Of a stretch of DNA of 47,294 nt, positions 3,188-45,777 are shown in pieces. Within the stretch, counting starts at the first letter, position 1; each line of letters starts with the position of its first letter. The notes beneath the pieces were generated by a model that was not told where the DNA came from, ran no database searches, and saw nothing but the letters and a program-made list of their open reading frames with translations. This DNA comes from Kiritimatiellales bacterium (GTDB lineage Bacteria > Verrucomicrobiota > Kiritimatiellia > Kiritimatiellales > Pontiellaceae). The DNA is taken from positions 1 to 47,294 of the forward strand of contig QIHI01000058.1 in assembly GCA_003230915.1 (NCBI GenBank). The letters are read 5' to 3'. The translations under genes and the position numbers were made by a program.

Positions 3188-3205
3188 CCCCTCAAGGATT
3201 CTCCC

Positions 3206-4615
3206 ATGCTCGAAATCATCTATATTATTTTCATGATGCTATTCCTTTTCGGAATCACCATTTTCGTCCATGAATGGGGGCACTTCATTGTCGCCAAAAA
3301 ATGCGGTTTGGTGATTGAAGCCTTCTCCATCGGCATGGGGCCTGCCCTCTGGAAAAAGGAGATTGATGGCATTGTCTACAAGATCGGCGCCTTTCCTATC
3401 GGCGGCTACGTCTCCCTTCCCCAGCTCGATCCTTCTGGCATGGAAAAGGTTCAAGGCGACAACAACGAGGGCGACCGTACAACCATGCCCGATATCTCGC
3501 CGTGGAAAAAGATCGCCGTCGCCGTCGCCGGCCCCTTCTGCAACATTGTTTTTGCCCTGTTCCTCGCTACGATCATCACCCTCTCTCCGGATGATGGATT
3601 TGCTGAAGAAAACGGTGTGTTTGTGGCTCAGGTCGAGACAGATAGTGAAGCGTATGCCGCAGGATTGCGCGATGGAGATAAAATCAAGGCCGTTAATGGA
3701 AACTCTGTCTTGAGCTGGTACGAAACCCGAGTGGAGTGCCTTCTCGGTGGAGGGGATGCGCAGGAGGTTGAGCTGAGCGTCTACAATGCTACCGATGGCG
3801 AACGTTTGATAACGGTCCCGGTGAACCATCCTGATAAATCTGACGATTTAATGAATGGAGTCTATCCAGCCTCTCCCTGCCAAGTACTGCAGGTTATTGC
3901 GGGAAGTCCTGCCGATAAATCCGGACTTTCCCCCGATGATATACTCATCAGCTTCGATGGAATCATGATCCAGGGAACATCACATTTCGTTGATCTGGTT
4001 CAAGCCAACCCCGACACAGAATCTCCCCTTATCGTCGAGCGCGACGGAGAAGCCTTTACTCTGATGGTCACTCCGGAATATGACGAAGCCAACGACAAGG
4101 TTATGATTGGCATCCAGTTTGGCGGGGCGCTTTCCCTGCCTTGGACACTGACCGGAAACCCTATAGCACAGATTAACAGCGATGCCTCCTCCATCTTCCG
4201 ATTACTCAAAGCCCTCACCACACCGGGTGAATCCAAACAAGCTGCAAGCGGCCTTGGTGGACCAGTAGCCATCTTTACAATGATCTGGATCTCTCTAAAA
4301 ATGAGCCTCCTTACGGCCATCGGGCTTATCCGCTTCATCAATATTAACCTCGCGGTGCTCAACCTTTTGCCGCTACCGGTGCTCGATGGCGGGCACATCT
4401 GCTTCGCACTCTGGGAAGGTATCACCCGCCGCAAGGTGCATCCGCAGGTGGTCACTTCGCTGGTCAGCGTCTTCGCCATCCTACTTATCTCCGCCATGCT
4501 CTTCCTCTCTTGGCGCGATCTCGACCGCAACTGGAACGTCAGCCGCTTCTTCAAGAAAGCAATGCCAACAGAACCGATAACGATTCCCGCTAGCGAACCG
4601 CAGAATCCCGAATAA
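3206..4615 (+). CDS. rseP: RIP zinc metalloprotease RseP (site-2 protease)
   Basis: This intramembrane protease cleaves anti-sigma factors and leftover signal peptides within the inner membrane. The 469-residue protein has HEWGH at residues 22-26 in the first membrane helix. Two PDZ-like regions follow (about 130-200 and 225-300), and the second metal-ligand motif NLLPLPVLDGGH lies near residues 385-397. It lies directly after cdsA; in many bacteria dxr lies between these two, but here it is absent. The last codons (SEPQNPE and stop) fall inside a heptad repeat element that begins at 4595, so the C-terminal tail may have been acquired from that repeat. Confidence 0.95.
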   Translation: MLEIIYIIFMMLFLFGITIFVHEWGHFIVAKKCGLVIEAFSIGMGPALWKKEIDGIVYKIGAFPIGGYVSLPQLDPSGMEKVQGDNNEGDRTTMPDISPWKKIAVAVAGPFCNIVFALFLATIITLSPDDGFAEENGVFVAQVETDSEAYAAGLRDGDKIKAVNGNSVLSWYETRVECLLGGGDAQEVELSVYNATDGERLITVPVNHPDKSDDLMNGVYPASPCQVLQVIAGSPADKSGLSPDDILISFDGIMIQGTSHFVDLVQANPDTESPLIVERDGEAFTLMVTPEYDEANDKVMIGIQFGGALSLPWTLTGNPIAQINSDASSIFRLLKALTTPGESKQAASGLGGPVAIFTMIWISLKMSLLTAIGLIRFININLAVLNLLPLPVLDGGHICFALWEGITRRKVHPQVVTSLVSVFAILLISAMLFLSWRDLDRNWNVSRFFKKAMPTEPITIPASEPQNPE

Positions 4616-4682
4616 CGAAAATCGAACCGCGGGAGGAAGCCCTCTTCTTCAATCGACATTCCCTTTTTGATATTCGATATTC
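4595..4682 (+). repeat. Degenerate heptad element, GAAnnnn array then nnnnTTC array (copy A)
   Basis: The element opens with the octamer GAACCGCA (4595-4602). GAATCCC, GAATAAC, GAAAATC and GAACCGC then follow in strict 7-base steps (4603-4630). After a middle segment, the inverted word nnnnTTC appears at 4655-4661, 4669-4675 and 4676-4682 on a 7-base grid. The direct and inverted arrays make the element roughly palindromic. It overlaps the rseP stop codon (4613-4615) and ends 5 bases before the next gene. The 7-base period rules out codon bias as the cause. See also 43766-43849, 34857-34891, 14326-14377 and 22647-22692. Confidence 0.75.
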
Positions 4683-4687
4683 GCTTT

Positions 4688-5056
4688 ATGAAGCGTAACT
4701 ACAAAAAGAAGTTTCAGTTCGACACCAAGAAGATCGGAATGGGGCTGTTTACGTTTTTTGTTGTTTTTGTGGCCTTCCGAATCATGACGCCACCGAGTAC
4801 CGAGATGGCGGTGATCGAGTCGCCGGACGGGAGCAAGAGTGCGCGGCTGCGGAAATTTTACTATATCTCCCAGCCTTCCTATAAAGTCTACTACCGTGAG
4901 TCTGGAAAAAATATTTGGCTCAATCTGCTCTACCTGCAAAGCTACACCAACGTACCGCACCAAACCGCTGTGGAATCCATCGAATGGAGTCCCGACTCGG
5001 AAGAACTTTATTTCAAAATCAATGGTACCTCCATCTGGTCGCACGTCTTTGAGTAG
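4688..5056 (+). CDS. Membrane-anchored hypothetical protein with propeller-like strand motif
   Basis: I do not recognise a named family. The 122-residue product starts with a basic stretch (MKRNYKKKF) and has one hydrophobic segment at about residues 18-35, consistent with a type II membrane anchor. The rest is a soluble domain containing ESPDGSKSARL and WSPDSEELYFKING, which resemble single blades of TolB-type or WD40-like beta-propellers. One or two blades cannot form a closed propeller, so it may be a fragment or a small strand-rich fold. I chose the ATG at 4688 over an in-frame TTG at 4667 that lies inside the repeat. It is downstream of rseP and may be read through from that operon. Confidence 0.7.
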   Translation: MKRNYKKKFQFDTKKIGMGLFTFFVVFVAFRIMTPPSTEMAVIESPDGSKSARLRKFYYISQPSYKVYYRESGKNIWLNLLYLQSYTNVPHQTAVESIEWSPDSEELYFKINGTSIWSHVFE

Positions 5057-5215
5057 GCTGGTGAGACGATCTCTGTATCGTTCCAACGGTAGAACGGCTC
5101 TGCCCGGATAGGGCGGGACGGAGTCCATCCCTTCTTAAAAATACCTTCTCCAAAATAAAAACCACACTCTGTCGTTATATGCGCAGATGGGAAATCAACC
5201 AACAGGAGGCATCAA

Positions 5216-43730: not shown

Positions 43731-43765
43731 GGATATGTCTCTCCTTTGTTTGGTTACACTCTGTT

Positions 43766-43849
43766 GAATTACGAACATTGAACAAGGAATGCCGAATGAT
43801 GAAGGTTCTCTTCAGAATCCATTATTCCCTGTTCGTTATTCTGCGGTTC
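43766..43849. repeat. Degenerate heptad element, GAAnnnn array then nnnnTTC array (copy B)
   Basis: Six words GAATTAC, GAACATT, GAACAAG, GAATGCC, GAATGAT and GAAGGTT run in 7-base steps from 43766 to 43807. After 13 bases the inverted words ATTATTC, CCTGTTC and GTTATTC follow at 43821-43841. The octamer TGCGGTTC (43842-43849) then closes the element. Read on the minus strand the element starts GAACCGCAGAAT, as copy A does, and abuts the dnaK stop codon (TAG shares its G). It fills the dnaK-groS gap. Confidence 0.78.
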
Positions 43850-45777
43850 TACTTCTTATCTTCGTCGACCATTTCAAAATCGGCTTCCTCGACGTCACTG
43901 GCCTGCTTTTCGCCACCACCGGCTCCGGCCTCCGCTCCCATATCTGGAGCACCCTCTGCACCCGGCTGAGCCTGCGCATACATTTCCGTCGCGGCGGCCT
44001 GCATTTTTTCGTTCAAAATGTCGAGCGTCGTCTTCATCGCATCGTAGTCCTCGGCTTCGACCGCCTTTTTAACAGGCTCGATTGCAGCTTCGACCTCGGC
44101 CTTCTGTTCGGCGGAAACCTTGTCCTCGTTTTCCTTCAGGAATTTTTCCGTCTGGAACACGGTGGAGTCCGCCTGGTTTTTCAGGTCGACCTTCTCGCGT
44201 AGTTTTTCATCTTCGGCCGCATGAGACTCGGCGTCTTTCACCATCCGATCCACTTCCTCATCGGACAAGCCGCTCGAATCTGTGATGGTAATATGTTGCG
44301 ATTTCCCCGTCCCCAGATCCTTCGCGCTGACCTTGACGATGCCGTTGGCATCGATGTCGAACGTTACTTCAATCTGCGGCGTACCGCGCGGAGCCTGCGG
44401 AATACCATCGAGGTTAAAACGATCAAGCGTTTTGTTGGCTGCAGCCATCTTGCGCTCACCCTGCAACACGTGGATTTCCACGGCGGGCTGATTGTCGGCG
44501 GCGGTCGAGAAGATCTCGTTCTTCTTGGCTGGAATGGTGGTGTTGCGTTCAATCAGCGGAGTGAATACGCCCCCCATGGTTTCAATACCCAGCGTCAGCG
44601 GAGTCACATCGAGAAGAAGAACATCCTTCACTTCACCTTTAAGAACCCCGCCCTGGATCGAAGCACCGATCGAAACCACTTCATCCGGGTTCACACCCTT
44701 GTGCGGCTCCTGACCAAAGATTTCCTTCACGGAATCCTGCACTTTCGGCATACGGGTGGAACCCCCCACCAAGATCACTTCATTGATTTCCGAAGCACTC
44801 AGGCCAGAGTCGGTCAAACAAGTACGTACCGGCGCAATGGCCTTGGTGATCAGGTCGTCGCAGAGTTCCTCAAGCTTGGCGCGACTGAGCGTCATGTTCA
44901 AGTGTTTCGGCCCGCTGGCATCCGCCGTGATGAACGGCAGATTGATCTCGGTCGACTGCGAGCTGGAAAGCTCGCACTTTGCTTTTTCGCCCGCTTCCTT
45001 CAGGCGTTGAAGTACCATCGGATCGGCGGAAAGGTCTACGCCCTGATCTTGTTTGAACTCGCTCACGAGCCAATCGATAATTTTTTGGTCGAAGTCGTCA
45101 CCGCCAAGATGGCCGTCACCGCTCGTTGCGGTTACTTCGAAAACGCCGTCGCCGATGTCGAGGATCGACACGTCAAACGTGCCGCCGCCAAGGTCGTAGA
45201 TCGCAATCTTCTCTTCCGACTTCTTGTCGAGGCCATACGCCAGCGACGCCGCAGTCGGCTCATTGATGATACGCAGTACTTCAAGGCCGGCAATCTTGCC
45301 TGCGTCCTTCGTAGCCTGACGCTGAGAATCGTTAAAGTAGGCCGGCACCGTGATGACCACCTGCGAAACCGTCTCGCCGAGATAAGCCTCTGCGTCCGTC
45401 TTCATCTTCTGGAGAATCATCGCCGAGATTTCCGGCGGAGAATACACCTTATCATCGATCTTAACGTGGGCGTCGCCATTCTTGGCCTTCACCACGTTGT
45501 AGGGAACCAGATGGATCTCGTGCTCCACCTCGTCAAACTTACGGCCCATGAAACGTTTGATCGAGAAAACCGTGTGTTGCGGGTTGGTTACCGCCTGACG
45601 CTTCGCCGCAGTACCGACCAAACGTTCGCCACTCTTCGTGAATGCCACAATCGATGGCGTGGTGCGTCCACCTTCCGCGTTCGGGATAACGGTTGGCTCG
45701 CCGCCTTCCATCACAGCCATGCATGAATTCGTGGTACCGAGGTCGATACCCAATACTTTAGATCCTGCTGTACTCAT
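43849..45777 (-). CDS. dnaK: Chaperone protein DnaK (Hsp70)
   Basis: DnaK binds exposed hydrophobic peptides in an ATP cycle driven by DnaJ and GrpE. The 642-residue protein has [18 protein letters not shown] at the N-terminus, [20 protein letters not shown]-like [31 protein letters not shown], and [14 protein letters not shown]. The substrate-binding domain contains [15 protein letters not shown], and an acidic C-terminal tail ends EMVDEDKK. Length matches the family. It has a good ribosome binding site (AGGAG). It lies upstream of groS-groL on the same strand, away from grpE-dnaJ. Confidence 0.98.

Follow-up and report, generated by a model that had tools for sequence, protein, structure and literature searches.

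Short palindromic repeats between the genes of operons are known in bacteria as REP or BIME elements, and the csR4-type heptamer repeats of Nostoc we take to count among the STRRs. The Nostoc repeat csR4 (attgcgaattg) overlaps as ATTGCGAATTGCGAATTG (PMC2408588), and cyanobacterial STRR heptamers serve as fingerprints (PMC5088731). The Beggiatoaceae carry TAACTGA repeats, direct and in 169 sets, one of them indirect (PMC4679880). Both kinds consist of 7-bp tandem units between genes, and neither is linked to a protein gene in the passages available of the two sources (PMC2408588, PMC4679880). In Coxiella, tandem heptamers (GACAGAT) lie ahead of the start codon of S23p in a number that varies between strains, and the S23p reading frame was judged expendable and probably not expressed (PMC4990558). 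One relative of the four-helix protein is a homopentamer (PMC4990558). DGR retrohoming requires the protein Avd, to which the family PF05635 bears a resemblance (PMC10053308).

The window (the whole stretch of 47,294 nucleotides analysed here, from a Kiritimatiellales bacterium) contains two elements with heptad arms and no gene. They and their surroundings are as follows:

3206..4615, plus strand: rseP, with its final codons and stop inside the left arm of the first element.
4595..4682, plus strand: gene-less heptad-arm element at the rseP 3' end (trimer grid, shuffles, RNA fold).
4595..4630, plus strand: left arm, GAACCGC-A-GAATCCC-GAATAAC-GAAAATC-GAACCGC, which includes the rseP stop TAA (4613-4615).
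4631..4642, no strand assigned: short loop region between the arms, no gene.
4643..4682, minus strand: right arm, decayed, reading GAATATC-GAATATC-(AAAAAGG)-GAATGTC-GATTGAA-GAAG on that strand.
4688..5056, plus strand: next co-directional ORF, with an ATG at 4688 and listed from a TTG at 4667.
43766..43849, minus strand: second gene-less element, in a better state of preservation, lying between dnaK and groES (pattern search, strict motif, RNA fold).

The original prediction had described GAA words in exact 7-base steps followed by TTC words on a 7-base grid. The GAA run exists, at 4603, 4610, 4617 and 4624, and so does an inverted half with TTC at 4645, 4659, 4673 and 4680 (steps of 14, 14 and 7), so that the direct-then-inverted build stands; the register, however, is imperfect, the first GAA (4595) being 8 bases ahead of 4603 and hence one base out, with a GAA at 4636 and a TTC at 4648 off the grid, and the right half is sparser than had been described. 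Only three of the seven unit positions recur at rseP, and when all 64 trimers were compared, GAA and TTC were the two with the most 7-step arrays in the window. The rseP stop codon and last residues do lie inside the element, as had been claimed, the stop being the TAA of GAATAAC in the left arm. The ATG of the following ORF is 5 bases past the right arm, and a similar ORF comes after rseP in many relatives. Other copies, too, have the left-arm word GAACCGCAGAA as their outer word. In our reading, what lies at the rseP end is a copy of a small mobile element, decayed and without a gene, one arm of which supplies the stop codon.

That the pattern at rseP is an artefact of chance or codon bias is a notion to which we give hardly any credence. 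The copy is degenerate, partly off the grid, and fails a strict two-arm motif (at most 3/19 mismatches per arm) that the copy at 43780-43834 passes. Against chance, GAANNNNGAANNNNGAANNNNGAA has 4 matches in the window (1 at rseP and 3 overlapping ones at 43766-43803) where 0.03 are expected, a count that 0 of 100 shuffles reached, and in the window's own genome (1.9 Mb, 143 contigs) the 4-unit GAA pattern matched 17 times, with overlaps, at 10 places, whereas its reversed control did not match at all. Arrays of five GAA units occur in 51 of 58 genomes, the own genome included, though the reversed control also matched in some relatives; for the GAA-heptad family as a whole, chance is already refuted. 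A search for at least 4 GAA in 6 units returned 11 matches in 379 kb of stretches plus the window, a figure that counts the two window elements on each strand and includes others that are coding or chance.

Across 26 loci, own included, the rseP site is polymorphic. By eye, several relatives (e.g. L074, L079, L080, L084, L091) have an empty junction between rseP and the gene that follows, GAA-heptad elements with cleaner right arms than the window copy follow rseP in L081, L082 and L083, and L093, L096 and L097 appear, again by eye, to have other heptad arrays there. In a tree of 25 RseP proteins, from which the short row L097 was left out, the four carriers are not one clade, and a single insertion followed by descent is not supported; one origin, repeated insertion and repeated loss are all possible. 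The words of its right arm argue for assigning the rseP copy to the GAA-heptad family, as do the cleaner copies that three relatives have at this site. The rseP tail past FFKKA is variable among relatives. It had been proposed that the element wrote the final residues SEPQNPE, a similar tail in homologues without the repeat counting against this. The arm does encode EPQNPE in the window and EPQNAE in L082, which has the element; yet L076 ends in EPQSAE with no element seen, and in L081 and L083 the element begins after the rseP stop, so that the contrary pattern was in part found and the element accounts for SEPQNPE no more than partly.

The second copy has its arms at 43766-43804 and 43810-43849, between dnaK and groES, both on the minus strand, and the stop TAG of dnaK has its G in common with the outer word GAACCGC. 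Both window copies sit between co-directional genes and fold better than shuffles on the operon sense strand, with z of -2.04 for 4593-4686 on the rseP sense strand (+0.51 on the opposite strand) and of -4.21 for 43758-43858 (-2.85 on the other strand). These properties would suit an RNA hairpin encoded by the host in a 3'-UTR or between cistrons (a REP-like stabiliser, an RNase III site or an attenuator) with a regulatory role at rseP and dnaK-groES, as would the similar right arm kept after rseP in three relatives; the four-helix gene described below would then be an occasional passenger. We nonetheless consider a host hairpin unlikely: presence at the rseP site is patchy, with other heptad words there by eye, arms of this kind enclose a conserved gene in more than one phylum, and at empty sites arms and gene are missing together. 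Nor does the structured 3'-end signal that had been suggested as an alternative gain from a search for terminator-like sites in 3200-5100, which found none, or from Rfam, which had no match anywhere in the window, even if the hairpins fold better than shuffles on the sense strand.

A mobile element accords with the distribution of the family. Copies with GAA heptads have GAACCGCAGAATnnnGAACAAGGAATnnnGAATnnnGAAG, whole or in part, in one arm and often its inverse in the opposite arm. The exact inner pattern GAACAAGGAATNNNGAATNNNGAAG occurs in at least 117 contig stretches; the matches listed come from Bacteroidota, Desulfobacterales, Brocadiaceae, Ignavibacteria, Kiritimatiellales, Planctomycetales and Pontiella sulfatireligans F21. 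When one mismatch is tolerated, 14 of the 146 genomes in the window's class have it, the own genome among them, and GAACAAGGAAT is common to several phyla. From this patchy presence and spread we infer that the GAA family is mobile. Three contig-scan matches (L131, L171, L206) were set aside as coincidences in coding sequence. One relative, G034 (L348-L367), has 48 matches of the GAACAAG arm pattern with up to 1 mismatch; the copies read are alike and mostly one-armed, many with a purine-rich GGAGAGGAGATG stretch ahead of them, and they may have been amplified recently. The class relatives G048 and G052 have long arrays of other GAA-heptad vocabularies, GAAACCTGAAACCGG and GAACATCGAACACC, and L204 has three similar array units close together in one contig.

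Several loci, read inward from their GAA arms, pass directly into a protein gene. The gene between the arms is of the family PF05635/TIGR02436 (four-helix-bundle, S23p or '23S rRNA-IVP', Avd-like); the PF05635 family was confirmed for the proteins of L178, L136 and L102, all from other phyla and with GAA-heptad arms, and the nearest solved chain to the L178 protein is 2rld. At L178 the gene has its start codon in GAATGTCGAAG and its stop in CTTCATAATTC. Closer to the window, open four-helix genes with their ATG in GAATGTCGAAG and their TAA in the opposite arm are found in its order, at L338 (G030) and L330 (G029); in its genus, L326 (G001) has an open gene with its ATG in one arm and its stop ahead of the other; and in its class, L321 is a GAA-heptad element with an open four-helix-bundle gene. 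The full-length forms read contain the PF05635 gene alone, with no transposase or reverse transcriptase inside, and no enzyme domain was recognised in the conserved protein. The gene is under purifying selection (median dN/dS 0.12 (0.08-0.19) over the 15 of 145 pairs with dS under 2). It is typically placed co-directionally: among 190 adjoining ORFs scored for 108 genes, 161 are on the same strand and 29 on the opposite one, and 66 of the 108 genes have same-strand ORFs on both sides.

Four-helix homology lies directly inside 11 of 133 GAACAAG-type arms, which make up 9 elements, and the three query proteins come from three of these elements' own loci. Three of the 9 are full length, five are truncated and one (L137) is cut by a contig end. 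The spacers between arms form a series of deletion derivatives, from 358-364 (full gene) through 202 and 112-116 (truncated gene) to 40-48 and 2-28 (no gene). An inverted partner arm with at most 3 mismatches was present on the inside for 61 of 133 arms and on the outside for 2 of 123. Two typeable arms are available in 15 of the 62 gene-less two-armed elements, and 14 of these 15 keep one 'start-side' and one 'stop-side' arm (7.7 in shuffles, with 14 reached by 11 of 10000), in a signed test that was defined after the gene-bearing copies had been seen; a simple test of inner-word polarity was weak, at 22/32 (425/10000) and 24/39 (1353/10000). One arm of each side in gene-less copies is as expected of internal deletion. 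The suggestion that the rseP feature might belong to a family of non-autonomous elements has proved largely right.

Arrays and genes also occur together at the level of genomes. Among 58 genomes, own included, 50 have both GAA arrays and PF05635 genes, 6 have neither and 2 are discordant, one each way (Fisher p 1.2e-6, or 0.006 after dropping four small genomes); G057 has PF05635 genes without 5-unit GAA arrays. The own genome (92.7% complete) yielded no PF05635 gene, so its copies are orphans and a former gene in the window copies is unproven. PF05635 genes are carried by 15 of 16 genomes chosen from other phyla, the one without being G071, the genome of L131.

The association extends beyond GAA words. 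In the relatives, many PF05635 genes are flanked by 7-bp arrays of other words, among them TAGTGAC, GTTGATn, TTAGGTn, CCAAACT, GGACTAT and GGAAGAC. Their flanks had a mean best lag-7 score of 0.52 on the upstream side and 0.53 on the downstream side, while other lags gave 0.34-0.45 (72 upstream and 71 downstream flanks of 120 bp from 73 genes, flanks under 100 bases being dropped); control genes taken from these loci scored 0.36/0.36 (48/32 flanks) and control flanks of the own genome 0.365/0.361 (298/294). In other phyla the score was 0.56/0.56 over 31 and 30 flanks, a set in which L302 and L316 have the same flanks and L290 duplicates L223: G065 (Pontiella sulfatireligans F21, the genome of L180) and G021, of the window's genus, agree in their PF05635 coordinates and look like a single genome. 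A secondary signal at lag 8 upstream (0.446) suggests occasional 8-bp units. At the plasmid loci (16 of 58 matches listed, from mostly cyanobacterial plasmid records) it reached 0.71/0.70, against at most 0.44 at the other lags from 3 to 12, the arms being near-perfect heptads such as AATTCGC, TAATTCG, GGGAGTA and GGGAACA. Scores above a cut of 18/35 were obtained for 45 of 72 upstream and 39 of 71 downstream flanks in the relatives and for 15/16 and 14/16 on plasmids; for genes of loci picked for holding an array the figures were 56/384 and 87/358. With 200 shuffles per flank, 70 distinct PF05635 genes had p at or below 0.01 upstream in 36 cases, downstream in 32, on both sides in 21 and on either in 47; neither flank was significant at 0.01 for 23 of the 70, in part because some automatic start codons were called too late, which lowers the flank signal. 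Beside the majority of the PF05635 genes examined, whether from relatives, from other phyla or from cyanobacterial plasmids, lie period-7 arrays with a locus-specific word, in keeping with the early claim that the period, more than the word, is the signal.

The two sides of these arrays tend toward inverted copies of each other, with a cognate alignment score of 15.9, compared with 8.4 for non-cognate arms and 9.2 for direct alignment. The period is kept while the word changes in parallel: ten loci that share a site ahead of a gltD-like gene differ in word by species, by eye in both arms together, and word similarity tracks that of the proteins (Mantel rho 0.177, against at most 0.082 in 500 permutations). 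At L221 and L230 two PF05635 genes lie near each other, with different or repeated heptad arrays around them. Four-helix genes also stand beside or inside defence loci in 7 of 16 cyanobacterial and Chlorohelix plasmid loci (L368-L371, L374, L376, L383), the placements being cas2-cas1 (twice), cas6-cas4, drmD-pglX, helicase-N6-methylase, before cas1, and DUF1156-Swt1-HEPN.

Plasmids of Nostocales offer filled and empty versions of the same sites, with flanks up to 98% identical, and here the inserted unit is arm, gene and arm, between two operon genes. The filled sites of Trichormus/Scytonema (L379, L397) have 98% flank identity to the empty site of Nostoc linckia (L394): the former read AAAAA-GTAAT-[element]-GTAAT-TAAC and the latter AAAAAGTAATTAAC. 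The left arms of L379 and L397 differ by exactly 14 bp, that is, two units, and L395 is a derivative without the right arm at the same place. Likewise, Nostoc pNsp_a and pC052_D (L380, L388) are filled and pNsp_b, pC052_A and pC052_B (L389-L391) are empty; L380 reads TTCTA-[element]-TTCTA, and in L388 the second copy is TTCTG. A 5-bp direct duplication is clean in 2 of 5 filled/empty plasmid comparisons; L377/L384 against L385/L386 and L378 against L396 are filled/empty pairs with no clean duplication, and L373 gave no usable junction. For L375 and L369 no empty site was found. At a TraM-linked Nostoc plasmid site (L387), heptad arms occupy a 260-bp intergenic stretch with no annotated four-helix gene. 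At the clean sites, which have other heptad words and are from another phylum than the window, either the whole block of arms and gene is present or all of it is absent. As had been supposed for rseP, an arm can supply the last letters of the gene upstream of it: this is seen in the TAA of rseP, in the TAG of dnaK and in pNsp_a, where the arm converts the neighbour's stop from TAG to TAA.

Heptanucleotide arrays could also arise by slippage alone, as STRR-like repeats and no mobile element, the four-helix genes merely sharing the intergenic space. Arms change by whole units, as between L379 and L397, GAA-type arrays also occur as long tandem runs, and 72 of 133 arms have no partner (at most 3 mismatches) within 700 bp. 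We regard slippage alone as very improbable, however: control flanks of the own genome mostly lack the signal (13/298 and 14/294 above the cut), the arms are inverted around the gene, GAACAAGGAAT recurs in several phyla, and arms and gene are both missing from a site whose flanks are 98% identical.

We therefore favour, with a probability of roughly 0.78, the reading that the rseP feature is a decayed, gene-less copy of an element whose parent form consists of a 7-bp array, a PF05635/TIGR02436 gene and an inverted array, and which would be moved via an enzyme acting in trans. The transcribed arms would pair into an imperfect hairpin of short helices, with mismatches about once per 7-bp unit. 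Complementarity between the variable bases of the two arms was considered and rejected (101 matches, 127 expected), which argues against a plain stem. The four-helix protein may bind the hairpin or its DNA and recruit an enzyme in trans, either a transposase or a reverse transcriptase, by which the unit would be inserted at operon junctions. The arms hold start and often stop codons (e.g. TAATGAATG), which would allow the upstream gene to end and the element's gene to start by translational coupling, so that insertion between operon genes would do little harm; the placement at stop codons fits insertion between co-directional operon genes. Gene-less forms would arise by internal deletion and then be moved in trans or persist as relics that decay in place, as presumably at rseP, and turnover of units by slippage could keep the period while the word drifts.

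Set against the systems described above, the elements share features with each. The 23S rRNA IVSs of Coxiella and Leptospira, which are inserted in 23S rRNA helices and cut out of the RNA by RNase III, are likewise small elements with inverted repeats and an optional single S23p gene (PF05635 family). Inverted ends around such an optional gene are found in the present family too, the window copies having the ends without the gene. In contrast to the IVSs, however, the present elements lie between protein genes (in the window, at rseP and between dnaK and groES) and not in rRNA helices, each side has a period-7 array as its arm, the word being specific to the locus, and, unlike in Coxiella, their protein is under purifying selection. 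MITEs resemble them in having inverted ends and non-coding deletion derivatives of a gene-bearing form, but here the gene-bearing form holds a four-helix gene alone and no transposase. Of the target duplication of MITEs, 5 bp were seen at two Nostocales sites and none at three others, and at rseP the relatives are too diverged for such a comparison. An interior of roughly 360 bp is too small for the reverse transcriptase and the template and variable repeats of a DGR, and the fixed palindrome of REP/BIME is replaced by period-7 words. As for STRRs, the word is not exactly repeated at rseP, whereas several arms on cyanobacterial plasmids are near-exact, and L372 has the csR4 word ATTGCGA, read from the opposite strand, in its arms. 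It may be that the STRR heptamers of cyanobacteria are arms of elements of this kind. The distinction originally drawn between the rseP element and STRR-type degenerate heptads is not a clear one, the two now looking like one phenomenon, arms of a four-helix-gene element.

More speculatively, and in our estimate with rather less than an even chance of being correct, these would be a class of mobile elements in many phyla with ends set by a 7-bp period rather than by a sequence; an Avd-like pentamer would read one unit per subunit and recruit a reverse transcriptase or transposase in trans, and STRRs, other bacterial heptamer arrays and 23S rRNA IVSs would be its insertions or relics. In those parts of the literature that were available to us, no explanation for the origin of STRR heptamers was found, and in the accessible open-licence texts nothing beyond the Coxiella IVS paper ties heptad arrays to PF05635 genes. 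To our knowledge, PF05635/TIGR02436 'four helix bundle protein' genes have no settled role outside rRNA IVSs and DGRs. Now that heptamer repeats and PF05635 genes are seen to go together, and empty sites and a conserved protein are at hand, both questions can be put to the test in culturable Nostocales. A rule for odd C-termini follows as well: an inserted arm may have written the gene's last codons.
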